From the NCBI GenBank assembly GCA_032622095.1, contig CP136064.1, positions 254,264,484 to 254,328,483 of the forward strand: DNA of 64,000 nt. Reading direction: 5' to 3'. A model generated the notes under the pieces. That model saw only the letters and a program-made list of their open reading frames with translations. It was not told the origin of the DNA and did no database searches. Each line of letters begins with the position of its first letter. Position 1 is the first letter of the stretch. This DNA is from Siphonodentalium dalli (taxonomy: Eukaryota > Mollusca > Scaphopoda > Gadilida > Siphonodentaliidae). The position numbers were made by a program, and so were the translations under genes. Positions 7,173 to 59,409 of this stretch are shown piece after piece.

Positions 7173-7213
<41 letters not shown>

Positions 7214-8561: not shown

Positions 8562-8999
8562 TGCGATAAAACACCTCTCATTTCTCAGTTATGCTCAAAC
8601 ACAACTACCGCTAATTACGGCGCGTCCATATTTATACGATCATGATGTCACGGCATCACTTCGCGTTACTCATCCTCTATTCTGATATAAAGGCTATCAC
8701 ACTAACATCATTTTGGCGTGTTTGTTTGTTATTCTGCGAAAACACCAACCATCACTGCCTATTGAAGACAACTTACATGTATTATATTATAATATAAAAT
8801 GGTCGCATAACATTTGAATGTGACAATCTCGGCCAAACTCACACGACTTATTTACGTGAAAATATGACAACCTAAACAATCTTTCGCGAACTAAACTATA
8901 ATTTATTCACAACAGATAATCACAAACATTCAATCTGCTGTTTTATTTATTTTCTTATCTAAAAACAGACTATCGTACGCGATAGAATTTAGCGCTAAA
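8562..8999. other. No gene seen
   Basis: No coding frame or repeat was recognised between the 54-bp array and the 5' end of LINE A. Confidence 0.4.
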
Positions 9000-9006
9000 C
9001 AACCAA

Positions 9007-10886
9007 GTGAGGCCATATCCCCAGATATACAGAGACTTCCAGGATATTCTTGGGGATTTCTCGCTCACACAAATGGTTACTGATAACACAAGGGATAACA
9101 ACATACTTGATCTCATCTTAACTAACAATATCGAACTAATCAATAGCACAAGCACATATTCCGGCATATCAGATCATGAGTTTGTCTCCTTAGTTGCAAA
9201 TTTAAACCCAGTCAGGAACAAACAAAAACCCAGGATTATTCACCTCTATAATAAAGCAGACTGGGAAAACTTCAGGCTTTTTACTGCAACAGAACTTTGT
9301 TCCATATATCCAAGTCATAGCAAATCTGTTGAAGACATTTGGACAATATTGAAAACAACATTAGAGAAAGGCATCTCAAAATTTGTCCCCACAAAAATGA
9401 TCACACCAAGGAGATCACTACCATGGATCACATCAGGGATAAAAAGACTTATACATGACAGTGCATACCGACAAATGAAAAAGACCTCAAATAACCATCT
9501 AAAACAGAAACACAGAAGTCTTAAAATGCTGGTCAAAAAGAAACTGAAACTGGCACATGAATCCTATGTTGAAAACATCCTTGAAATTGACAAAAATATC
9601 CATGAAGACCACAATGAAAGAAATTACAAGTCATTCACCAAAAAGCTGTTCTCTTACATTAAAAGCACACAACAACAATCTCAAACAATAAACTCCATCA
9701 ATGACCCAACCACTGGCACTCTGAAAAACTCAAATGCCGAAATAGCCCAGGTGCTAAACAATCAATTTCAGTCAGTCTTTTCCCCACTAAACCCCCTTAC
9801 ATTGTCACAACATTGCCTGACGACCTTACGGAATAATACACATGATAACTATATCCAGTCAAATAGTCATGGCTATCCGACCATCAAGGAAATTAAAGTA
9901 AACGAATATGGTGTCCTTAAACAACTATCTGACCTCAAAACCAACAAAGCTGCCGGACCAGATAACCTTAATCCTGCCATTCTGACACAAATGCGTTACG
10001 AAATAGCTCCAGCCCTCACAATACTCATCCAGAAAACCCTTGACACTGGGACATTACCAAATGACTGGACAAAAGGCAATGTAGTTCCAATATTTAAAAA
10101 GGGAGATAAAACCGACCCCTCAAACTACAGGCCAATCACCTCAACATGTAGCATGTGTAAGATTGCAGAGCATATAATTGCATCTCATATAAGTACACAC
10201 TTCAAAACCCATAACATCCTGTATGACTTACAACATGGCTTTCGTGAACGCCGGTCCTGCGAAACACAATTAGTACAACTTATTTCAACCTTGTTGGAAA
10301 CCTTTTTGCAGGACACCAAACTGACTTAATACTGTTAGATTTTAGCAAAGCTTTTGATAAAGTCAACCACATAAAGCTACTCTACAAATTAAATGAACAC
10401 GGCATCAGAGGCCCAATCTTAAACTGGATTAGATCCTTCCTATATGGCCGCAGACAAGTAGTTGTCCTGGAAGGGGAAACCTCAGCTTCAGTCCCTGTCA
10501 CCTCAGGGGTGCCGCAGGGCTTATCCTGTGCCCCCTACTGTTTCTACTGTATATTAATGACCTCCCTGACGAATTAATATCACAAACCAGACTTTTTGCA
10601 GATGACACAGCCATATATATAACCATCAAAAGCCCCTCAGATCACAACACTCTACAAACCGATCTAATTAAATTGGAGGAATGGGAAAGAAAATGGGATA
10701 TGTCGTTCAATCCGGGAAAATGCCAAGTATTAACAGTGGCTCGCAAGAAAAACCCAGTTTACCATCAATACATCTTGCATGGGCAAATCTTGCAACATAA
10801 CAGCACAGCCCGCTATCTCGGGGTTGACCTAACCACAAACATGTCATTCAACGAACATATACATAAAATAACATCAAGTGCAAACC
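9007..10886 (+). pseudogene. LINE A ORF2, endonuclease tail and reverse transcriptase (broken)
   Basis: The product would be the endonuclease/reverse transcriptase that copies LINE RNA into the target site. The first 440 codons are open. Residues 53-60 contain the endonuclease C-terminal motif GISDHEFV; residues 314-320 (KAAGPDN) and 361-377 (PIFKKG to NYRPI) are reverse transcriptase finger motifs; HGFR follows at 410-413. The frame then breaks near 10310. The next frame carries DFSKAFDKV and GVPQG, breaks again near 10520, and resumes with LYINDLP and the catalytic FADDTA at about 10595-10612. Sequence like SFNPGKCQVL and ARYLGVDL follows. The endonuclease N-terminus is missing. It is certainly reverse transcriptase; the clade is less sure. 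Confidence 0.9.
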
Positions 10887-10900
10887 AAACTCTTGGATTC
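10887..10900 (+). repeat. Left 14-bp target-site duplication of LINE B
   Basis: AAACTCTTGGATTC here is repeated exactly at 11985-11998. The duplicated bases encode the TLGF residues of LINE A and occur once in an uninterrupted element. Confidence 0.9.
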
Positions 10901-11342
10901 TTTCTTACCATCTGCAATTACCGAATGGAACAAACTGTCAGAAACTACAAAGAGCAGCAGTACAATCGAAGACTTCAAAAAGGAACTGAACAGTGACAAT
11001 ATACGTCCACCTGCCTACTTTTATCATAGTAAATGTCGTAAATCTCATATCCTCCATACCCGGTTAAGATTGAACTGCAGCCACCTAAGTGGTGACCTGA
11101 CAGATAACCATGTAACAATTTCCCCCTTCTGTCTATGTGGGGAATTTGAGAAAACTTACCACTATCTCTTTGAATGTACATTTTATCAAGAGCCCAGAAG
11201 AGAACTATATGACTCCCTACCAAATGTTGCCTTATCTGAGAATACACTAATGCGGGGGTCAAGAGAGCTTAGTCTTCGCGAAAACAAACAAATATTTAAT
11301 GCAGTACAGACATATATTATGAGAACAAAAAGATTTCCATGA
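10901..11342 (+). pseudogene. LINE B ORF2 C-terminal fragment with Cys/His motif
   Basis: About 147 residues are open to a TGA stop at the end. The fragment starts with SAITEWNKL, typical of the tail after the reverse transcriptase thumb, and contains CLCGEFEKTYHYLFEC. The latter is a C-x-C-x7-H-x4-C arrangement of the kind found at the C-terminus of many Jockey-group ORF2 proteins, probably nucleic-acid binding. The catalytic domains are absent because of 5' truncation, so it has no start of its own and is not a gene. The longer frame starting at 10878 is a chance fusion with LINE A sequence. Confidence 0.85.
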
Positions 11343-12495: not shown

Positions 12496-12520
12496 TTGGC
12501 TCAAATTATCATTCTTTTAA

Positions 12521-13014
12521 AGGCACGGTTGGCCTTAGTTGTCGAAAATATTCATATTTGTTCCAAACACCGTCAACAGACAAACATTAAAACGCATACA
12601 GTTTCGTTCATATATACCATGACCATCGCGTAAACAGCATGCTATCATAAAGACTTACTATATGTTACATAAGCAAGAGCCTGATTGTGTTACAGAAGAC
12701 AACACAGAGTCACTGGCTAATCACACACAAATGATATAAACGCTCTTTATTAGTTCCATATCAGGAATTCAGCAACAAAGAACGCTCTTTATGTTTACCA
12801 TCATAATATAAACAAACACCAGAACAGTAACTTTTTATGCTTTTGTTTACATAACAATGGTCAAACAAATGACAATAACATACTGTTTATGCGATATTTC
12901 TTATTTATATACGGACAAAGTCTTTCTACATTTTGATGTTCTTTCTGTTTGTGGCGGTTTTTGATGGGTGGAAATATTTTCACAGGATACCCACCGCCAA
13001 GGCCAACCGTACCT
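12521..13014. mobile_element. TTAA-flanked MITE, 494 bp
   Basis: The left end AGGCACGGTTGGCCTT and right end AAGGCCAACCGTACCT are inverted repeats with one mismatch. TTAA lies directly outside each end (12517-12520 and 13015-13018). It sits just after the LINE A stop codon and separates it from the LINE A 3' tail. TTAA targets suggest a piggyBac-like source, as inference. No transposase frame is present. Confidence 0.8.
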
Positions 13015-42830: not shown

Positions 42831-44577
42831 ACAATGACTCAAGGATATGTTAATCGATAGTGAGACCATACTTGGGATTTCTTCGTCTTTGTTGCGTTTA
42901 TACACAATGGAATAAACACTAAACGGGTTTCCTGATAACAGTTGAATCCGGCATGACGATATCGCCTGCAGTTTATATTATTGAACAGCATTATTATGTT
43001 GTTGCTTGTGATGTACGTGGAGGTATGGACACATGCATTCATTCTCGGAATTTCTGACCAAACATAACGATATACTCCTGAGGTAAAAATCAGTTCATTT
43101 TGTAAGGACAGTGCACCATTATCCTTTATATGGTTATTGTAGGAGTGTCCGTTTTTTTTTTTTGAGATACCACTTTTCCGGAAAATACCATGCATGCGTA
43201 TACTATATCTCCAGCAAGAACAACGTTACTGCAGTATTAATAGGGCTTACAAATTGGCTATGTGTGGCATTTTCTTTCGATAGACTGTCACTAGCAGATG
43301 TTATGAAATCCGATGGAATAATTCCAAACATTTGTCCTTACAGCAAGCTGTAGTTGCAGAATGCATATTTTTGTGAATTCTCAGTATCAAATTCATGGCA
43401 AAAAAATAGATTTTTAATATGTTTTAGAGCGCAATCCCATTGTTGCAATCGTTCCCTGATGTTTGGTAAAGCACATCAATTATCAAGGCTGGCGAAGGAA
43501 TAGTTAAATGATTATCCCATTGTGCTCTGCTTCCCCCAAACACACTGCCATTATACGCCGCTACTATTTACACACCTCTATAGTATACTAAGCAGGCACA
43601 TATATATGGGACGGCGTATAAGGGGAGTGCGGGGTGCATCTCCTCTGGTATAATAATTGAAGCTACATTGAAACGACCGCGCGATTTGTTTGTCATGGGT
43701 GGCGTTTGTCGAACAATGGGATATCACTGAAATATTAGTTTGCCAGCCTTGGGAATTGGTGTGACTTACCAAAATACAATATATATATACACCAACAGGG
43801 CGAACGGAAGGCGGTGGCAATAGTAACACATGCATTGGTTGAATCATTTATTAACTAGTAGAATAATTACATTTATTATAATTATTCCACAAAACTAATC
43901 CAGTTCCGATAATATTCACAGGTACTTAGGACCACTAATCCAACGATGAAACTAAACGAATTAATATTTACATTTAGAACCACTAAATAGTGATATATCC
44001 AATAATTCAACAGAATCACAACTTCACTATATAGCACTCCACATTTCCGATCAAACTTGTATCTGGAGAATCTGGAGGAACCAATGAACTGTTAGTAGTA
44101 ATTTCGAAACAGTTTTCTTGTAAAGGCGACAGGTTTGTCACATAATAATGATGTGCAGCTTTACCTTTAGCAACAAGTAAGTTGGTTGTTGGTTACATGT
44201 CCAAATTCCTTATCATCATTCTGGCAGACAGACTTCTTCGGAATTCATGATCCGCTTATACAATATATATAATATAATAGTAAGACACAATCATGCGACT
44301 GCCGCATTTGACTTTCCAAACACATCTGCGAACGACTTGGTTTGTCAAAACGGGTCACCCGTTATTAACGTGCATGGGACCAGTCCGTGTTGTTTCGGAC
44401 ATATTTATTCACACTCAACGGCGATCATTGCATGGTTAATCGGATTGTTAGGCGTGGCTAACGGGCTGTTGAATCTCGGCGAGCGCACGGATTTCGTCGT
44501 GGTCAACAAACGCTCAACGGCGCATTTCCAGTTAATTGCGTTATGGGGGGGGGGTAAATTGTGCTCTAAGTCTGTCA
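42831..44577. other. No gene seen
   Basis: Overlapping frames on both strands (42839-43353, 43578-43847, 44247-44591) without domains. A G run lies at 44545-44554. Confidence 0.4.
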
Positions 44578-44656
44578 GAGCACGTGAATAGTTCTTTACC
44601 AGAATAAATCTCGTCTTCGACTCGATTGATTCTGGTAAAGAACTATTCGTGTGCTC
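44578..44656. repeat. Hairpin with 33-bp arms
   Basis: GAATAGTTCTTTACCAGAAT on the left pairs with ATTCTGGTAAAGAACTATTC on the right, with GAGCAC/GTGCTC at the ends and a 13-base loop. Confidence 0.85.
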
Positions 44657-45799
44657 TAACCATTACATACAAATTATTTTGCTTTTTATTTCTATACATT
44701 GATATATTTTTTGGGAAGTACAATCAATTTGCTCCACAACAAGACCATTTCCATAATATACATTCCAGGAGAATGAACTGGTTTGACCAAATTACTTACC
44801 CACACCCCATTAACATTTCTACCAAAAGACAATAGGCATATTGACATTCCATCCGTGAGTCAGATTTGTCTAGTATCTGCTAATTACACTTTACCATAAA
44901 ACTGCCTCAGCCATTACTCTCTACAAAAAATAGGACATCGACATTAATGCTATGTTGACACTCAGAATAGTGTGGCTTTTTGAAAAGTTACCCATAATTC
45001 TGCTGTGGTTAAGAGGTCGATGAATTAGAGCATTACTGTACTTTATTAATTTCGCAAAAATATAATTTAAATTTGCGAAAATACAATAATATATCCATGT
45101 TTAATTGTTTTGTATATTACTATTATATGATAACACCCCTTCAAATTTAAACCAACTGCAGTTCGATATATGTATTAACACTATGCTCGGTATTATGGGA
45201 ATGATCTACCCCTACCACCACCCCCAAAATGTACAATGTAGACGAATACGATAAACACATAAAATGTGCCATATAATTAGAACACGACACTTCTCAGATG
45301 GCAAACATCCTTACAAAGATGCTCTATAATAATAATTGGGTCTTTAAAATTCCACAGAGGGGAGGGTTTCCATGTGTTGGACTGTTGGCTCAGGGTGTAT
45401 AACACGGCTGTTGATGATAAAGTAAAATGTGATACGTTTTTATGGTGCTGCCGTTGTAAGCAGCCTGTACTGTCTATGCAGCAACTGGGCTCACCATTCT
45501 GAATGCTTTAGGAGAACGCAGTCCTACCTTAGTATTACTGATATCAAGAGTGGTATATACCATGAATTGTTAATTTTACACTTGTAATAACTGGAGGTGA
45601 AGTGTTTTTGGTGATCTTTTTGTCATTTCAGCATTTTGTTAAAGTATTTTTTTCATAAAAAGAAGAGATACACCCGTATTGGGCTTATTTCGTAATCAAA
45701 TAGGTCCCATATGAACCTATGTGATCTTTTTAAGGTAAAATATGAACCTATTTGCACGAGGATATGTTGAGCTAATATAAGTAGATAGATAATACAATA
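44657..45799. other. No gene seen
   Basis: No coding or repeat structure recognised. Confidence 0.4.
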
Positions 45800-45990
45800 C
45801 CATAGGTCGCCTCGCATATATAAGAGAATGCATTGGCTTAACACATTCAAAATTATAAAATTGTTAAAGAATGTAAGAAAAAATGGTAAAAAGTGTTAAA
45901 AATGATTTTTTTTAGGCCAATGCATTCTCTTATATATGCGAGGCGACCTATGGTCGACTCGCATATATAAGACAATGCATTGGTACAGGG
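45800..45990. mobile_element. Truncated second copy of the TA MITE at 5267-5634
   Basis: The right terminal repeat is complete (GGCCAATGCATTCTCTTATA through TGCATTGGTACAGGG). The left repeat starts only at CATAGGTCGCCTCGC, so its outer half is missing. The subterminal hairpin symmetry is kept. Confidence 0.8.
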
Positions 45991-46640
45991 CATAACTGTA
46001 ACTATCACAATGTGGTCAAGGAGCCGGTTCCAATGATATCCATATTTGTATGGTTCTATTGAGACAGACCGAAGATATTTTAGGATGTTGAAGCTTTATT
46101 TGGCCGGTTTTGGCCGGTTTTGTTGGGTAAAGGGTTAAACTACGCATTCCAGCCATATGGGAAATGTCCAGTAATAGGCCGAGCAATGAACACTTAACTC
46201 CATGACGTATTAATTGTATTGTAATCAACATTTCAATTAACGTCACGTTTACTCTTATGTATACTATGTTTCTGGTCTAGCCCCATGTATATTTTTATCT
46301 TAACTCTATGATAGTATCTTTACTTGTTAGGAATTACACATTCTACCTCACACGACAGCCTGTTCTCCCGAAAACAAGCACATTATATGCTTATATTATG
46401 AAGGGTAATAAAATATATTTCTACCTGTATATGAGGCCTTTAAGTAACAAATATTATTAATGTGCATTTTGAACCAGTTTGTGGACGTTGCAAAATTATA
46501 AAAATGACAGCCATGCATAAGTTGGATACCTTTATATATGATTAAGTATTACTGTGGTGGGGTCAATATGTGTTCTGTGGACCTGTGCTTGAAATGCATA
46601 TAATGCGCACTTTCTATTTTTGCTCGGCTTCTCATTTAAG
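45991..46640. other. No gene seen
   Basis: AT-rich intron-like sequence upstream of the exon 4 duplicate. Confidence 0.4.
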
Positions 46641-46693
46641 ATCAGACCTATAGCTTGAAAAGGAAGACGAGTACTACACCGGCGAACATCGAA
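46641..46693 (+). pseudogene. Degenerate duplicate of ADAM exon 4 (5' part)
   Basis: GCTTCTCATTTAAG then ATCAGACCTATAGC, AGGAAGACGAGTACTACACC and GCGAACATC parallel the true exon 201 bp downstream. The acceptor is AAG instead of CAG. The furin-like block has become KRKT instead of RRKR, and similarity stops before the VEVLAV segment. The copy stays in frame with exon 4 through the intervening DNA (67 codons, no stop), so retention would not break the protein. Probably an old tandem exon duplication. Confidence 0.65.
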
Positions 46694-46841
46694 TCGGATT
46701 ATTTACCTCTAAGAGTCCCTTCAATCCAGAATATGCTTGCTACTAAATCTGCACTTCGAGGATTAACATTTAGATCGATACTAGAAATGAGTATTATGTT
46801 GACCTATATGTTGGCAATTCATTCTCGGCGTCTCATTTCAG

Positions 46842-46932
46842 ATCCGACCAGCGATTTGAGAAGGAAGAGGAGTACTACACCGACGAACATTGTGGAAGTG
46901 CTGGCAGTGCTAGACTACACTATATATAAATT
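46842..46932 (+). CDS. ADAM-type metalloprotease, exon 4: furin site and start of catalytic domain
   Basis: A clear acceptor (TCTCATTTCAG) precedes the exon. The last G of exon 3 completes an Asp codon, and the reading is PTSDLRRKRSTTP followed by NIVEVLAVLDYTIYK. RRKR fits a furin cleavage site releasing the prodomain. V-E-x-x-x-V-x-D-Y-x-I-Y is the first strand of the ADAM/mig-17 catalytic domain. The proposed donor is GTATGT at 46933 (phase 2). The same exon end plus donor is then repeated thirteen more times, so the real 3' boundary may be any of the array copies. The zinc-binding motif is not in this exon. Confidence 0.7.
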
Positions 46933-47390
46933 GTATGTACATCAGTGCTAGACTACACTATATATAAATTGTATGTACATCAGTGCTAGACTACACTATA
47001 TATAAATTGTATGTACATCAGTGCTAGACTACACTATATATAAATTGTATGTACATCAGTGCTAGACTACACTATATATAAATTGTATGTACATCAGTGC
47101 TAGACTACACTATATATACATTGTATGTGCTAGACTACACTATATATAAATTGTATGTGCTAGACTACACTATATATAAATTATATGTGCTCGACTACAC
47201 TATATATAAATTATATGAGCTAGACTACACTATATATAAATTGTATGTGCTAGACTACACTATATATAAATTATATGTGCTCGACTACACTATATATAAA
47301 TTGTAGGTACATTTGTGCTGGAGGTGCTCGACTGCACTATATATAAATTGTATGTGCTCGACTACACTATATATAAATTGTAGGTACATC
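46907..47390 (+). repeat. Fourteen-unit tandem array of the ADAM exon 4 3' end and its splice donor
   Basis: Unit starts are 46907, 46945, 46983, 47021, 47059, 47097, 47127, 47157, 47187, 47217, 47247, 47277, 47324 and 47354. The first five units are 38 bp, most later ones 30 bp; the 8-bp difference is GTACATCA. Each unit contains GTGCTAGACTACACTATATA or a variant, encoding VLDYTIYK when in frame; most units then carry a GTATGT-type donor. Thirty-base units keep the frame, 38-base units shift it. The frame 47097-47306 is a product of this repetition. Confidence 0.9.
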
Positions 47391-47779
47391 TGTGTTTCTG
47401 TTCTTAATGCATAGCGGGTGAGGTGACAATATAGGTGACTTGATTTTTCGAGCACAAGTCAATCCAAAGATGAGGGTTAGTGTTAGAAGCAATAACAAAT
47501 TGAAAACATCCATAAATAACATAAATGGGCATCCACGAATATGATTGATATTGTTAGTAAATCATCTACTTGACACTGCGAATAACTCCAAACTGGTATA
47601 TAAGGCACCAAAAGCAAAATTCAATAACAAATTGATGCTATATGTAAATGGTCTCTGCAATGTTAGAACTTTACGATTTAATTATACAAAGATACGCGTT
47701 ATTAACTTTGGTGTTAATGACTCCTGCACAATATACCACGACACACAAAAAGAGTCTTGAAATTGCTATGGGCGATGTA
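47391..47779 (+). other. No gene seen
   Basis: A 71-codon frame at 47545-47760 has no recognised features. Confidence 0.4.
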
Positions 47780-47905
47780 TTCGGATTGATCGACAGTTTC
47801 TAAGGTTATTTTGCGATTCACCGGCATTTTGTCGCAAAAGCATGCATTCTGATTGGTCGAGAGTTTTTAACGTTTAGTTTGCGATTCACCAGCATAAACC
47901 GCTGG
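47780..47905 (+). promoter_or_regulatory. Duplicated CCAAT-containing segment upstream of a coding-like region
   Basis: Two copies about 63 bp apart share the order GATTGATCGA/GATTGGTCGA, then AGTTT, then TTTGCGATTCACC and GCAT. The second contains ATTGG (inverted CCAAT). A TTTTATATGG TATA-like site follows at about 47918 and an ATG at 47931. The promoter role is inference from these motifs and position. Confidence 0.3.
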
Positions 47906-47930
47906 TCGCTAAGCACATTTTATATGGAGC

Positions 47931-48530
47931 ATGGTGTCACTGATAGCGTCACCACCACCACCACCACCACAACCACCGCCACCACCACCACCACCACCAC
48001 CACCACCACAGCAGCAACCGACTGGTGTCACCCCGGCGGCTCCTGCGATGGAACAGTTCAACTTCGAGATGGGGCTGGTTCTCCACCACAGAGGGAGGAC
48101 TCCTTCACAGTACCGGAGACGGCGATATATAAGCCGGAGTCTCCACCACACAGGGAGAGAGAACCACCGGATGAAGATGACATCATCGACGACTTCACAA
48201 AATATCTGAAGAGCCGGGCAATCGCTGCTGCAAGAAACAAACAAAATTTCACCTTCACCAAAGCAGAAAGCCAATTGGTGTTTCACTGCAAAATCTACAT
48301 TGCAGCAGACGCTGGTGACCCGGCCAACATGGCATACAGGATTATACGGCCAGAATACAGTCGAATACCGAGAAGACAGTAACATGAACAAAACCTCTCC
48401 CTCGGATGCCTCTTCGTCTGCACCAACACCGGCGAAGAGGAAGAATGAAGAACACAAAGACGAAGAAACGATGAAAAATTCATCGAAAAATATTTTTTTC
48501 TCTTTTTTACTTTCTTTTTTGTTTTGACTA
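47931..48530 (+). pseudogene. Unidentified coding-like region with a proline/glutamine-rich start, frame-disrupted
   Basis: This is the most GC-rich, codon-like stretch nearby. From the ATG at 47931 one frame gives a short leader, a run of about twenty prolines, QQQ and VTPAAPAMEQFNFEMGL. Near 48080 a second frame takes over with EDSFTVPETAIYKPESPP, an acidic PPDEDDIIDDF segment and then FTFTKAESQLVFHCKIYI, to a TAA at about 48380. A third frame then reads NMNKTSPSDASSSAPTPAKR and a lysine/glutamate-rich tail. Two frameshifts in one protein, or overlapping small frames, would explain this. I do not recognise the family; a mobile-element or host disordered protein are both possible. The 230-codon minus-strand frame is a shadow of the CCA repeat. 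Confidence 0.35.
47945..48010 (+). repeat. (CCA)n microsatellite
   Basis: About 20 CCA/CAC triplets with few interruptions, encoding proline, threonine or histidine runs depending on frame. Confidence 0.9.
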
Positions 48531-48889
48531 AATGCAGACAATGAGAGGTTAATGGGATGACCATTCGGTCTTTCCGACAATCCAGGGGCTAGCCCCCACA
48601 AACACTCCCATAAAAAAGATTACTTTACGTACGGCTGACCAGAACGCTGTTCTGTGTGGACCCATATATTTTATCACAGAAGAAAAATAGCTCACTTCAT
48701 AGAATATACTACCGAAAAAAGGTGCTTTTCGTTAATTATGTTTATCATATTAGATTATGGTGTATCTCCTATATGAAAATACAGGATATACAGTTTGACT
48801 TGCATGTGATTCGGTGTTCCACGACACTTATCAAAAATGCTTGAAATAGCCACAACAACATGGGAGTGCTTGAAGTTTATTCCTTATAC

Positions 48890-49680
48890 TCCACTTTAAA
48901 ACCCAGCCTTTTTGTTCTACCTCGACCGTCTATTTTCCGAATGGGCAATTAATACCATACGTTATGCCACATTGTCAAGTCGACATTCGTAATCTAGAAA
49001 GTCCATGTCTCATAATTTTTGCACAATTAGCTCCTACGTATACATCTAACAGATAACTAGTTCGTTTATATACAAACTCCCACAAAACAAAAACAAACGT
49101 CTACATAGTGCTTATGAATCCCACGTAATCCAATATATGGTTGGAAGTGGCATCACGCTAATTTGCGTACCAGGGGGTATCTACCACACTCAAACATAAT
49201 ACGTCATCACGATATAGTTACTGATCTTCGTATGTACATAACGATAATAATGCTTTGTTTCGAGTAAATACAAATTCTAAAATTAATGTGCCAAACAAAC
49301 AGATAATTGCATCGACAATATTAGTTTGTTATATCTTTGTGTTCATCAATGTTTAGATTCGTCCAAAGTTGTACTCTTGGTCGGTTTATATGCATATACA
49401 ATTGTGTATATGAATATATACCACGTGCAACCTCTACTCAGCGTATGGTGTCGATGGACGTGGTTTTATTCTCAGTCGAGGACTATATTTTAGACATTAA
49501 ACGTTCTTATATGTCACATTTATCGCGATTTATCAGAACTGTTTATCTTCGGTATGAAAGTATAGTTCACCCTTGTATGTTTAAAACTGTGATTTAAGTT
49601 GATTAACGGACTCGCGACTGGACAATTGGAAACTAATCTCTGATTGTCCAGCAGCTCGTCCATTAACCATGAAATAATGG
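48890..49680 (+). repeat. Dispersed repeat, copy A, with 3' terminal hairpin
   Basis: Matches 53073-53865 in the same orientation. Shared phrases include GTCGACATTCGTAATCTAGA, then AGTCCATGTCT or a variant, and AACGCTCTTATATTTCTCAT-like text near the end. Each copy finishes in a hairpin starting TTAA.GGACTCGCG. The 86-codon frame at 49337-49597 lies in it; copy B does not keep that frame, so it is not a gene. Confidence 0.7.
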
Positions 49681-50003
49681 CCAGACAGGGTGTTGACTAT
49701 TGCAAGACTTCTCGGAGGCCTCACTTGAAATATCAGTGTGTTAAACTGCAGACGGTCCAGCGAAGGGCCTTTATACCCTTATACAACACTATGGTAAAAG
49801 CCAGGTAAACCATGGTTTACCAGGCGCTGCTCTGGTAATGTGATAAAGTCAGTTTCACAATAAAACACTCTGGTAACGATCCGATAAACCACGATCAACC
49901 ATATGCGCATCTGGTTTGCAGTTATAACGCTCTTGTGAATGTCATGTTAAAACCCATGTAACAATGGCATACCCTTGTAAAGTCCAAGTAAATGTATGGT
50001 ACT

Positions 50004-50049
50004 GTCAGGTTTACAATGACATACTCTGGTAACAGCCATGTAAATTGAC
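50004..50049 (+). repeat. Left copy of a perfect 46-bp duplication flanking LINE C
   Basis: Starts GTCAGGTTTACAATGACATA and ends CATGTAAATTGAC; identical to 51068-51113. Confidence 0.85.
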
Positions 50050-51067
50050 ATACAATACAATAATTAATTTGTATAGCGCTCAATATTATGAGTACATATT
50101 CAACGGCGCTTTACATTACATCGAGCTCATTGCATAATCAGCATAATACATGTACATGCACATATATCTAGGAATTAAATGCTACATCAAAGAGATGTTT
50201 TGAGGCCGGTCTTAAACTTATTTAAATCAGTGAATATTTTCAAGTGAGGTGGAATGCTATTCCATAGATGTGGACCTGCAAATGAAAATGCCCTATCGCC
50301 AAACGTTTTCTGTTTGTTGAAAGGAATGTACAAAAGCATACTACTATCAGATCGTAATCCATATGTACACACATTTCTGTCTTTGATCATATCCTGTATA
50401 TACAATGGTGACATGTTATTACGAGATTTGAAGACAAGCAAAATAATTTTGAACATGATTAGATACTCCACTGGCAACCAGTGTAATTGCTTGAGAACTG
50501 GAGTTATATGTTCATGCCGAGGAGTGTATGCTACAACTCGCGCCGCAGCATTTAGCACTTTTTGCAGGCGATCACACTGGTAATCCGGTAGTCCATACAG
50601 TAAAGAATTACAGTAATCTAAGTGTGGCGTGACAAAAGCATGGACCAATGTCTTAGTTGAGTCTACATCGAGGTATTGTCTAATTTGTCGGATTTTGTAT
50701 AAACCTCTGAACGCCTTCTTACACATATTAGAGATATGGTTATCCATTGTCATGATTGTGTCAAAATACGATCCCAGGTTGCGAACAGTGTCCTTTGTTG
50801 GTATGTCGGCGTCTCCCACATGAATTGAACTGATGTTGACTTTCTGAAGTAGTTGTCGAGAACCAATGATTATGAATTCAGTCTTATCGTCATTTATCAT
50901 GAGTCGGTTGGTAATCATCCACGCTCTAATGTACACAATACAGTTCTCCACAATTTGACGAGCTTTAGTTTCGCCTCTCTCTGTCGGTCGAAATGAAAAG
51001 TAGATTTGGGTATCATCTGCATAGCCGTGAACATCGGGGAGGTGACTTTCAAGAAAATCATGGTAAA
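50050..51067 (-). mobile_element. LINE C: 5'-truncated CR1/L2-like LINE, minus strand
   Basis: The 3' part of ORF2 is followed by a UTR that ends with AAAGCGCCGTTGAATATG, AGCGCTATACAAATTAA and TTATTGTATTGTATG. This is the usual tail of L2/CR1-like LINEs, finishing in a short tandem repeat. It interrupts the left arm of the foldback element and is flanked by a 46-bp perfect duplication, either an unusually long target duplication or a recent tandem unit. Confidence 0.85.
50187..51060 (-). pseudogene. LINE C ORF2 fragment: reverse transcriptase from YADD onward
   Basis: The frame begins at the truncated 5' edge with HDFLESHLPDVHGYADDTQI, so the catalytic YADD motif is present only a few residues from the break. 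It continues without a stop for about 290 codons through NDDKTEFIIIGS, VRNLGSYFD, TPHLDYCNSLLYGLP, RLQKVLNAAARV, HITPVLKQLHWLPV and FAGPHLWNSIPPHL to the stop. These are the thumb and C-terminal blocks of CR1/L2/Jockey-group reverse transcriptases. The fingers, endonuclease and ORF1 are missing. The intact frame suggests a fairly recent insertion. Confidence 0.95.
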
Positions 51068-51113
51068 GTCAGGTTTACAATGACATACTCTGGTAACAGC
51101 CATGTAAATTGAC
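51068..51113 (+). repeat. Right copy of the 46-bp duplication
   Basis: Identical to 50004-50049, while other units of the host minisatellite differ at many positions. Confidence 0.85.
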
Positions 51114-53072
51114 TTACAATTTCCAAGTAAATCATGGTAAAGTCAGGTTAACAATGATATACTCTGATAAAAGCCGTGTAAAAAGGACATTCCCTTGTAA
51201 TTTCCAAGTAAAGTCATATAAAGTTAGGTTAACAATAATAGACTCTGGAAAAGCCATTACACCCTTGAAATAAAAACATACCGTTGTAAATTCCATGAAA
51301 GTAAAGCCATCGTGTACCCATTTCACTCTCGTAAATTACCGGTGAAACATGACAAACATGGGAAAATAGTGTAGACCATCACTTCTTCTGTAAAACGTTC
51401 TTTAACAAAACACTCTTTAAATGTTTTTATTATGTTTTCATTTCTGAATAGGTAGTAATGTACAAGTGATGCAAGGGAAATGTTAGTATAAATCAGTCTT
51501 ATGTCCAGACCAAAGTCTGGTATGTTGTCTTGTTGCGATTCAGACTTACATTACCGATCCTAAAAACGTATTTCAACCAGGGACAAAAACTTTGGTGGTT
51601 ATGTTTTTGCATATTTCAGTTCAGAACGGAAACAACTCTGCAATGTGATGTTCAACCAATCTCAAAATTGCTGGTATATGGGTTACAATACACCAAATGA
51701 TTTACATAGGCCTCAGTGTTACCAAATCCCACTGGCCTGTATTCGCAGGAAATGGTTGACCATGCACGAGTATTTAAAATTAAAGAACGTCCTCTTAGAC
51801 ACACGGAAATGTGCCCAAAAGTACTTGTAAACGTGCTGGATCACACTGCAGCTTGACATACGTCACACTACCCTTAACATTGAGAAAAAAATAACATCGA
51901 AAAAAACACAAACACCTCCCATAAATTATTCGCCATTTGTACAGCCATAACCGTTTACCATGTGGCTATATTTGATGTTTCTCGACGGGAAACCCTTTTG
52001 TGCATTTTTCGTGCACTTTTCATCCATGTATCATTGACCATTCAGCTGCCAGAATTTATGTTATGCTGATCCTAGCTTGGGGGTGCCAGGGGAAATCACT
52101 CTACTAATTTGTATGTGGTGTATTGTAACATATAGGCTCCCATGTTGGTTAATGTGTTGTATATAATGGTAATACAGAACGATTTACCAGAGCGCAATGT
52201 AAGTGGAGTACATCATGCCTTTACTAGGAATTTACAAGGGTGTGTCCTTTTTACATGGACTTTACATGGCTTTTACCAGATTATATCATTGTCTATCTGA
52301 CTTTACTTATATTACCACAGTAAACCAGAATCATATTTTGTTCATTATTCAGTGTAAAACAATTGTAACCGGTGTCATTTTCAAAGGTTAACATAATGAG
52401 ACAAGAATATTCGTATTGATAAGTAGGCTAATTCCAGAAGAGCTAACACTATATGTAGTCACATGTGTTATTCATATAGTCTCCGATCTGTTATCTCAAA
52501 TGTTAAAGCTTCTGAAAGCGCACATCGGTACTACCGTGGTAACGTTACCGTAATATCTTGGTAAATTACCCTGGTGTAATTACCCTGGTAGAATACCAAA
52601 TGCATACTTACATATATGGTTGGGAATATTTTACTAAAAATACATGGGTGGGTCTATATTTGTCCGTATTATATGGGGACCATTCACTAGATGAATTTTA
52701 CCCGAGTAAAATTGCCTGGTTCCAATCACCAAGGTAGAATACAACAGAATACCATAATGTTTTACCATGGTTTACCAGATTGTACTTTTTATAAGGGTAA
52801 TGGTCCCTTACGAACCGCGGTCACCTTATAAAACGCAGAGCAGCATTGAACTACTTTGTATCCGATGACTTATACACGGACCATTATGTCATGAACCTTA
52901 AGTCCATAAAGGGACAATCTTAAAAGCTACGCGGCTGAAACATATTGTATTCCCAATTTATTTATAATCAAACACACTCCATGCAAATGAGCCGCGTCGT
53001 GTAACCGGACAGGCGATTATTGAAATTACGAAATCGGAACACCAGTGCATGGGGACCGTGCATGCAACAATT

Positions 53073-53865
53073 ACACTTAAAATCCAGCCTATTTGCTCAA
53101 CAACCCCAATCTTCCGAATAGGCACTTTATATCACACTTTATACCACAAGTCGACATTCGTAATCTAGATCGTTCATGTCTCCATATTCATGCACAACAA
53201 ACTCTTACAGAGAGCTCTAACAGAGACATATATAGTTCGCTTCTATACTGCATATACGACGAAAATTTGCATATTTCTTATAAACCCCAAATTATATCTA
53301 CTTCCTTGTCGATAGAGTCGTGCTGCTCATTTGCCTATCCGCGAGTGTATGTCACATTGCAACATAACATGTCATATGTGAGACTACAGTAACACAACGG
53401 TGATAGTGAATTGTTCGAGTCAAGGTATCCTAAAATGGATACATGACCAAAATACAGACACTTGCGTCCACAGTATACCTATATTACGTATATATACTAT
53501 ACGCTATGCACCTCGCAAAACAAATATATTAGTATTTGTTTGCGTACATCGATGTTTGATTTCGAAAGATCTGTAACGGTATATACATGTATGCGTACAG
53601 TTGTGTAATATTTAGAAAGTCCACACGCAGCCACCACTAACGACACGAACCGTGTCTAGTTGCGCGGTTTTGTTGTCAGCCAAGGATTATGTTTATACAG
53701 AAAAACGCTCTTATATTTCTCATTTATCGTAATATTTCATCTGTATATCCTATTTAATTTATGTTGGTTAATGGACTCGCGCATGGACATTCTAAACTAA
53801 ATTGTTTCGCCTTCGGACTGGACCATCTAGTTTCCGAATGTCCAATAGCTCGTTCATTACACTGG
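53073..53865 (+). repeat. Dispersed repeat, copy B
   Basis: Partner of 48890-49680. The terminal hairpin pairs GGACATTC with GAATGTCC where copy A pairs GGACAAT with ATTGTCC. Confidence 0.7.
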
Positions 53866-55099
53866 AATAATACACTCATATAATCTACCTGGTCTGCGAC
53901 GGCGGTCAGGAAAAAAACCTTTACATGATAAAACTTGCTTATTGAAACCCATGCGTCAAGCCGCAGCTCAAATATTCGGAAATTCATTTGCACAAATGTT
54001 ATATGTTAGTCTATTTTCATAAAATGTCCTCACACGCATGCAAAATCGATAGCCATGTACATTTCGTCAACGCATGATATATGCAGCATACACAGACACT
54101 AATTATGAAACATAAGTGTTATAAATTAACATAGGAATGATTACTCAGTTACAAAAATGTGTGTAGACTAAATTTAAATTGATAAAATTTAATTGAAATA
54201 ATGTGATTATATTTTAACGATCAAATTCCCACGAAGTTAATTGCTATAATGATAAATACACCTGCATTGTATGACATACCATATTTCATAAAATAATCTC
54301 ATTGGCAACTATAGCCCTCAAACACCGATTCGTTCTTGTTCACGCTAATACAAGCACACGGACACATATCATTATCACTATCAAACATTGTATGCTAGAG
54401 TTATCTCGCTTATACACAGTGAACTGAATACCCGGACAGAACTGGTTCTTCTGTGTCTGCAGGTAGGCATCATATCTGTATGGCGATGTGTACCCATGAC
54501 ACAATGTGTTGTCACTGCAGGATCTGCTACACTACCAATCTACCATATAATCCGTTGGGTAGGTCGGAAACTTGGCAGCGTCAATTATTAATAATTGAGC
54601 ACGAACTAAAGAAAAATTACGTACTTATGTATTATAAATATATATATTACAAACTTATATTTCACGAATCAGCCACTACACTCATTCATAATATAATTAG
54701 AACTCAAAATTAGCTGTGATCAGCAACAGTGTTTCAATTCACTTTAACATGTATATTTATTGCATGATCCCACCCTTATTCCATTCAACAGGAAATAGTG
54801 ACAGGTGACATTTGACTTCCGGTTTGTCGTCTGTTTACATGCCATGCGCTACATCTAAGCAATACTATGGCTTCCAATATTTGTTCAACAATCTGTAATG
54901 AATGAAGAGATTGAAAAGTTATGTCATTAAATATACGCCATCATATACGCCAAATGGTCTTTATTTGTCTGGAACCATTTCTTTAAGCGGGCAAACGTGA
55001 AACGTCATCGATTGCCTTACATAAGCCGATGTTAGTTTCACGTCCCATTTTTGGATTTAAACATGCTTTGTCGGGGTTTTAGATCATGTAGTAAATATA
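53866..55099. other. No gene seen
   Basis: Short frames only; no repeat recognised. Confidence 0.4.
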
Positions 55100-55244
55100 A
55101 TCTACAACTCGTCCCCAGTTTAGAGTGGAATTTACAAAACTCGTCCAGTAAATTAGGTCTGGACCTCGCCAACGGCTCGGCCCAGACCTAATTTACTGGA
55201 CTCATTTTGTAAATTCCGCTATAAACTGGGGACTCGTTGTAGAT
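55100..55244. mobile_element. Palindromic MITE, 145 bp
   Basis: ATCTACAACTCGTCCCCAGT at the left is mirrored by ACTGGGGACTCGTTGTAGAT at the right. Inner arms GTCCAGTAAATTAGGTCTGG and CCAGACCTAATTTACTGGAC are perfect. The loop is about 20 bases. Confidence 0.85.
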
Positions 55245-55254
55245 CCTCTAATTA

Positions 55255-55465
55255 TGACATTCATTCTGCTAATAAAACATCTATCTGTCTATCTATCTCA
55301 CCCAATCTAATCGTGAGTAAAATCATGGAAACGTGGATAAGATTATGTCAAGATCAAACAAGGTTAGATTGAGATCTAACTATAAACACATTCGATTATC
55401 AAATACAACCGGGCTATGTTTTTATACTAATAAGTTGGATTAAACATCGTGTATGTTATGTTACA
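55255..55465 (+). repeat. Dispersed repeat shared with 63505-63690
   Basis: Both start TGACATTCATTCTGCTAATA and share ACTAATAAGTTGG followed by TTAAACA. Copies differ by several small indels. Confidence 0.75.
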
Positions 55466-57925: not shown

Positions 57926-58670
57926 TCTATTATATATTTTGGAAGATCTGTCTGTGTGTCTGTGTGTGAGTCTGTGTGTTCGCGATGGACTCGAAAACGG
58001 CAGAACCGATTTCGATGAAACTTGGTATGTGGGTGTATTTTCGGCCGGGAACTGGCATAAGCCTAGTAATTTGCCCGTGCGACGTGACCTTGACCTTGAA
58101 ATCGGGTAATTTCAAGGTCAAACGCCCGAATATCACGGGATTTCGATGAAACTTGGTATGTGCTGGTATCTTCGGTCGGAGAGTGGCATAAACCTATTAA
58201 TTTGCCCGTGCGACGTGACCTTGACCTTGAAATCGGGTCATTTCAATGTCAAACACTCGAATATCACGGGATTTCGATGAAACTTGGTATGTTGGGCCAC
58301 ATTCGTATGGGGAGTCTCATAAGCATATTCGTTTGCCCGTGCGACGTGACCTTGACCTTGAAATCGGGTCAATTCAAGGTCAAATCGCCAATTTTGATGG
58401 GATTTCGACGAAATTTGATACATGGGGGTACTTTTGTCAACTGAGTGTTTTGGAAGGGTCGAGTCGTGACCCCGACCTGACCTTGACCTTCAAAATGATC
58501 AATTCAAGGTCAAATCGGGTAAAACCGGATGGATTTCGACGGGCACGTTTGTCGGGTACTTTTGTCCGGGCACAGTTTTGGACTGATCTAATCGTAACCC
58601 CCATTTGACCTTGACCTTCAAAATGGACAATTCAAGGTCAAAGCCCGGACGAAGTCGGGTCACCTTCTAG
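57926..58670 (+). mobile_element. Non-autonomous Helitron 1 (745 bp)
   Basis: Starts TCTATTATATATTTTGGAAG after an A and ends in the hairpin CCCGGACGAAGTCGGG, then ten bases and CTAG. This is the TC...CTRR structure of Helitrons with A/T insertion. The interior is about five tandem units of about 130 bp, each with GATTTCGATGAAACTTGG (or a later variant) and GACGTGACCTTGACCTTGAA. It abuts a second copy directly. No Rep/helicase coding region. Confidence 0.85.
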
Positions 58671-59409
58671 TCTATTATATATTTTGGAAGATCTGTCTGT
58701 CTGTGTGTCAGTCTGTGTGTTCGCGATGGACTCGAAAACGGCCTAACCGATTTCGATGAAACTTGGTACATGGCGGTATTTTCGGCCGAGAACTGGCTTA
58801 GGCCTATTAATTTGTCCGTTCGACGTGACATTGACCTTGAAATCGGGTAATTTCAAGGTCAAACGACCGAATATCTCGGGATTTAGATGAAACTTGGTAT
58901 GTGGGAGTACTTTCGGCCGAGGGGTGACATGAGCCTATTACTTTGCCTGTGCGACGTGACCTTGACCTTGAAATATGGTCATTTCAAGGTCAAACGCCCG
59001 AATATCACGGGATTTCGATGAAACTTGGTATGTGGGGGTATTTTCGGCCGGGGAATGGCATAGGCTCATTAATTTGCCCGTGCGACGTGACATTGACCTT
59101 GAAATCGGGTCAATTCAAGGTCAAATCGACAATTTTTATTGGATTTCGACGAAATTTGATACATGGGGTTACTTTTGTACACTGAGTGTTTTGGACGGGT
59201 CAAATCGTGGCCCAGCCTCACCTTGACCTTCTAAATGATCAATTCAAGGTCAAATCGGGTAAAACCGGATGGATTTCGACGGGCACGTTTGTCGGGTACT
59301 TTTGTCCGTGCAGTATTTTTGACTGATCAAATCGTGACCCCATTTGACCTTGACCTTTAAAATGGACAATTCAAGGGCAAAGCCCGGACGAAGTCGGGTC
59401 ACCTTCTAG
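58671..59409 (+). mobile_element. Non-autonomous Helitron 2 (739 bp), head-to-tail with Helitron 1
   Basis: Same start, internal units, terminal hairpin and CTAG as Helitron 1. The T of the target follows at 59410. The junction CTAG|TCTATT joins one 3' end directly to the next 5' end with no filler. Confidence 0.85.

Follow-up and report, generated by a model that had tools for sequence, protein, structure and literature searches.

A tandem array at an exon-intron junction of an ADAMTS-like protease gene in the scaphopod Siphonodentalium dalli, with candidate decoy splice donors

What becomes of a gene in which the end of a coding exon is repeated, splice donor included, fourteen times over? 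The question is raised by a 64,000-nucleotide stretch of the genome of the scaphopod Siphonodentalium dalli (the window), which at 46907-47379 of the plus strand holds 14 tandem units, each consisting of the last 26 nucleotides of a coding exon, here termed exon A, and a splice donor. This agrees with a preliminary description of the same DNA, in which the exon end and donor were said to be amplified fourteen-fold. The 26-nt unit word takes the degenerate form GTGCT[AC]GACT[AG]CACTATATATA[AC]ATT, which is matched exactly by 13 of the 14 units and with one mismatch by unit 10; units 1-5 are identical to each other. The units are spaced 38 bp (units 1-5), 30 bp (units 6-11 and 13) and 47 bp (unit 12), and the TRF score of the array reaches 410. 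A GT occupies the donor position in 11 of the 14 units, as nine GTATGT and two GTAGGT, bearing out the earlier claim of a competing 5' splice site in most units; AT stands in its place in units 8, 9 and 11.

The array overlaps an authentic exon-intron junction, as both splicing phase and paralogues indicate. Exon A (46842-46932, plus strand; slashes mark splice sites) carries an RRKR site and the first strand of the M12B protease domain, NIVEVLAVLDYTIYK, and then TT/; with its acceptor TTTCAG/AT at 46842 it reads (D)PTSDLRRKRSTTPTNIVEVLAVLDYTIYK TT/ and joins the preceding propeptide exon, P3, in phase 1 through G/AT (Asp). The next exon, B, begins AG/TTGG or, in one paralogue (L001), AG/CTGG in all six close paralogues, the window gene included, and a phase-2 donor is therefore required; the resulting join of exons A and B gives K, Q or T followed by F-W (K-F-W in the window gene). 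A GT lies five bases past the last Tyr codon in all 12 exon-A loci found. The unit 1 donor (GTATGT, 46933-46938, plus strand) satisfies this arrangement, and the junction is the same in 6/6 close and 6/6 more distant paralogues found. The proposal that the founding unit is the exon end with its donor thus fits, and the check on relatives that had been suggested for the VLDYTIYK segment supports its being the exon in use. A 33-aa exon A query returned no Pfam or PDB match. A truncated older copy of the exon (exon A prime, 46641-46690, plus strand), with no donor seen, lies upstream of the working one, window positions 46543-46689 being 90.5% identical over 147 bp to the flank and 5' part of exon A in the paralogue L004; such a truncated copy precedes exon A in the paralogue L003 too. 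An open frame runs from 46640 through exon A to a stop ending at 46951.

The gene around the array codes for an M12B protease whose cysteine-rich domain is of the ADAMTS type, so that the protease assignment of the preliminary description stands and its ADAM label gives way to ADAMTS-like M12B as the better fit. Three propeptide exons were recognised upstream on the plus strand by comparison with one paralogue, L006, alone, and their ends were read from the sequence: P1 (15683-15888, with inferred ends CAG/ACAAT and AAG/GTAAG; 76% identical, across 83 aa, to an L006 upstream ORF), P2 (17400-17489, ends likewise inferred and the acceptor with a poor pyrimidine tract; 35/35 aa identical to an L006 upstream ORF) and P3 (18631-18754, ending in phase 1; 80% identical, across 46 aa, to an ORF upstream of L006). 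No propeptide-exon match appeared in the 10 kb preceding L005. The remaining exons were derived by tracing L005 and L006 downstream, starting from the exon with HELGH. In the window gene, exons B, C, D, F (with AHELGH) and G lie outside the window at C4:254329164-254345628, on the same strand and in order, with GT and AG in place at all five; a one-motif scan did not find exon E. Scanning the window for the motif revealed no HExxH exon belonging to this gene, nor was there any credible match to exons B-G.

When the exons are joined, with exon E taken from L006, the product shows a reprolysin domain with the HExxHxxxxxHD motif (PF13688, E 3.9e-11; PF01421, E 6.3e-10), and three joined ORFs 3' of exon G match ADAMTS_CR_2 (PF17771, E 5.4e-7; 30.4 bits, cut-off 27.3). 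The PDB sequence matches include ADAMTS-1, -4, -5 and -13, with snake venom M12B enzymes ranking best. The likeness to the ADAMTS family thus comprises the reprolysin domain with HELGHSLSLPHD, the RRKR just before it and the cysteine-rich domain, whereas the propeptide matches Pfam Pep_M12B_propep only under the Pfam cut-off (E 0.11). A PF01421 profile search of the genome found none of these protease genes; the HELGH exon of both L005 and L006 was recovered by PF13688 and again by PF13582, one of these four hits exceeding the cut-off. Our literature search found nothing on ADAMTS expansion in molluscs.

An exon A query of the genome gave at least 12 matches, six at 87-100% identity (window included) and six at 48-64%. 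Among the close group, the unit count is 14 in the window gene, seven in L003, four in L001 (two of them without GT), four in L005 and one each in L004 and L006, such that an array is present in 4/6 close and 0/6 distant paralogues found. With up to three mismatches allowed, the unit word has 30 matches in the 2.2-Gb genome, all at these six loci, compared with one for a reversed control pattern, although the search skips very common words and the rarity of the unit word is to that extent not strictly proven. Chance origin of the unit word is excluded by this comparison. A satellite dispersed elsewhere in the genome was looked for and not found, all 30 unit matches being at the six loci. Nor is an array across the junction a general feature of these genes: none was found at exons B, C, D, F and G of the six close genes, the 30 exons that this survey covered, and by our reading of the coordinates seven of the 30 have a tandem repeat at most 60 bases away.

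The window gene and L003 are duplicates 27 Mb apart. They differ at 256 of 9888 aligned bases (2.6%), a sum that includes part of the array and, through a repeat in L003, 1.5 kb counted double, and the distance from exon A to a common point in the intron is 598 bp in the former against 365 bp in the latter. Differences in unit number, such as these 14 versus seven, were seen between paralogues only. Window positions 43297-55455 align with G000:C4:281.69 Mb (L007, L008) as a segmental duplication of at least about 12 kb, on the opposite strand and 27 Mb off. A short repeat at 45799-45991 occurs in both orientations here and also at several places near L003, L005 and L006.

These loci suggest how the minisatellite may have been born, namely by tandem duplication of an exon-intron junction within a small family of duplicated ADAMTS-like M12B genes. 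In L004, which has one unit, a 30-bp stretch has the word GTGC at either end, and slippage between two such words would yield a unit of 30 bp; in the 38- and 47-bp units, exon sequence at or near GTGCT would then be joined to the intron at other points. The exon A region of the window is itself a mosaic, first L004-like, then resembling the intron upstream of L005 exon A (46690-46823, plus strand; window 46680-46932 against L005, 85.5% over 256 bp), and then an exon whose closest match, L003 aside, is that of L001 (97% over 109 bp). The 38-bp register is common to the window and L005, and the 30/47 register to L003 and, with one 28-bp unit, L001. Exchange among paralogues would be the simplest reading of both the mosaic and the registers.

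The consequences of donor choice depend on the frame. As the preliminary description had noted, 30-bp units keep it and 38-bp units shift it. It had further proposed that donor choice would add copies of VLDYTIYKLY to the protein, which the window gene contradicts: any later unit donor lengthens the exon by 38-447 nt and takes in a TAG in the exon frame, inside unit 2 (46949-46951, plus strand), since units 1-5 are 38 bp. None of the ten later GT donors is productive, and among the unit donors that of unit 1 alone gives the full protease, with an open frame into exon B; the TAG at 46949 also precedes every other GT further downstream in this gene. It comes from a single codon difference from L005, CTA in place of CTC, synonymous (Leu) in the normal frame, of which CTA gives TAG in the shifted one. 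The frame test in the paralogues covered the unit donors. In L003, donors 2-5 add 30, 60, 90 and 120 nt in frame and open (+10 to +40 residues; 4/6 later donors), and donors 6 and 7 run into a stop. The 114 nt that donor 4 adds in L005 are likewise in frame and open (+38 residues; 1/3 later donors), while donors 2 and 3 of that gene are open but in the wrong phase for exon B; the single further GT donor of L001 is out of phase. Lengthening of the protein by donor choice would hence be excluded in the window gene and possible in L003 and L005.

We then compared computed donor strengths, for which the U1 end sequence and the donor weights are general knowledge. The first donor is GTATGT or GTACGG in 6/6 close paralogues versus GTAAGT in 6/6 distant ones, the former being weaker; the array is not needed to explain this weakness, because both single-unit genes have weak first donors too. 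Pairing with U1 was computed at -2.7 to -3.0 kcal/mol for the GTATGT units of the window, -5.4 to -7.5 kcal/mol for the GTAAGT of the distant paralogues and -6.5 kcal/mol for the GTAGGT units, with a smaller spread in weight-matrix scores (4.0, 5.7-7.1 and 4.4, respectively). For the GTAGGT units, the better register is probably TAG/GTACAT, four bases on, which by our reading makes 47307-47312 (unit 12) and 47384-47389 (unit 14, the most intron-proximal), both on the plus strand, candidate alternative donors. Units 12 and 14, at the intron-proximal end, have the strongest computed U1 pairing in the array and could compete well. U1 energy alone is no mark of a donor, because the two units of L001 that lack GT at the unit position still pair at -5.7 to -5.8. 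Donors 2-7 share a 9-nt context with donor 1.

The idea that the array serves RNA structure was considered and rejected (z -0.33, 36 of 100 shuffles folding equally well). The pairing probability of the first donor is 0.86-0.92 in the window gene and L005 and 0.54-0.74 in the other four; it fails to separate array from single-unit genes, since the single-unit L004 (0.68-0.73) is level with the seven-unit L003 (0.73-0.74).

The reading that we moderately favor is that of a junction-born minisatellite whose later donors would act as decoys, diverting transcripts into unproductive forms and reducing productive splicing, rather than that of a device for lengthening the catalytic domain. Use of a later donor would extend the exon by the above-noted 38-447 nt up to a stop soon after the RRKR site; the resulting transcript would be unproductive and a likely target of nonsense-mediated decay, as at least five of the exons found (B, C, D, F and G) follow that stop. 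The array itself would most likely be a by-product of unstable DNA exchanging sequence among paralogues, which would lower productive splicing to some degree. The rather less probable reading of a silent passenger, with the unit 1 donor nearly always used, e.g., owing to exon-side enhancers, and the rest spliced out as intron, would agree with the retention, as far as read, of the catalytic exons and splice sites, by which donor 1 must work at least partly; the shared 9-nt context of donors 2-7 and the better U1 pairing of units 12 and 14 speak against it. Taken together, the array's effect in the window gene is likely to be either decoy donors with unproductive transcripts or none.

Whether the gene is being kept at all bears on a further reading, that of a duplicate on its way to becoming a pseudogene in which the array is tolerated for that reason. 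The recent duplication with L003 and the stop reached from every later donor are compatible with it. The pair's dN/dS of 0.49 is not clearly below 1: there are eight non-synonymous changes where flank divergence predicts 12.9 (P = 0.10, with site counts back-calculated from the 15-pair analysis), and purifying selection on this pair alone is not significant. However, exons A, B, C, D, F and G, the six catalytic ones read, show no stop, frameshift or lost splice site, and dN/dS is 0.30-0.54 for the window gene against the other four paralogues, though older branches dominate these values. Over all 15 pairs of close paralogues it is 0.30-0.68, the L001 rows being somewhat inflated by a few residues (exon F start and G end) outside the matched part. 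We accordingly consider such decay unlikely. As for a generator of isoforms with VLDYTIYKLY copies inserted into the catalytic domain, L003 donors 1-5 (+0 to +40 residues) and L005 donor 4 (+38) are in phase and open, but the absence of any productive later donor in the window gene (0/10), and the expected disturbance of the fold by extra core-strand copies, make it very improbable. An internal promoter seeded by 14 TATA-box-like words is the least credible proposal: each unit does hold TATATAAA or nearly so, which resembles the TATA-box consensus, but in the single-unit paralogues this stretch is simply codons for T-I-Y-K or T-I-Y-Q. As a speculation to which we attach little weight, unit number, register (30, 38 or 47 bp) and the CTA/CTC site might form a heritable splicing dial, setting for each copy the share of productive, unproductive and lengthened products, and reset by exchange among paralogues.

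Unproductive splicing through alternative 5' splice sites coupled to nonsense-mediated decay is a known phenomenon. The favored decoy reading would resemble it in that the stop added by the later donors lies far ahead of the last junction, and would differ from it in that the putative decoys repeat the authentic donor in tandem and are not a conserved poison element. A human precedent for a splice-donor minisatellite is IFI6/G1P3 (Turri 1995), where two downstream repeat units are reported to serve as donors, with three mRNA species as the outcome (PMC4526556). In both cases, a minisatellite lies at a splice donor with donors inside its units; in IFI6, donor use is reported in mRNA and later donors are reported to give an alternative full protein, unlike in the window gene with its stop at 46949, whose later donors are candidates. 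The window array has units of 30, 38 and 47 bp, of which the 38-bp ones shift the frame and the later donors lead to a stop, and it differs among six paralogues. We would accordingly describe it as built like the IFI6 array, by analogy and with no claim of proven membership in one class. Titles and the opening parts of abstracts disclosed no further junction minisatellites besides IFI6/G1P3.

The paralogues constitute a natural series, in which one exon-intron junction is present in 1, 1, 4, 4, 7 and 14 copies across one gene family of a single genome; in one pair the flanks are almost identical. The series would let competition among donors, be it won by the first, the strongest or the intron-nearest, be measured in one animal, and it illustrates a way in which minisatellites can originate at splice sites.

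The remainder of the window contains several features of other kinds. Two long ORFs, at 8986-11342 (plus strand) and 50187-51068 (minus strand), presumably code for non-LTR retrotransposon reverse transcriptase. Two 131-bp tandem arrays, at 58008-58430 and 58749-59176, have consensus units that are alike by eye, and a run of 40 G lies at 7173-7212. Finally, ORFs at 12496-12960 resemble ORFs about 4 kb upstream of L005 exon A, with matching spacing, perhaps reflecting a dispersed element or a shared flank.
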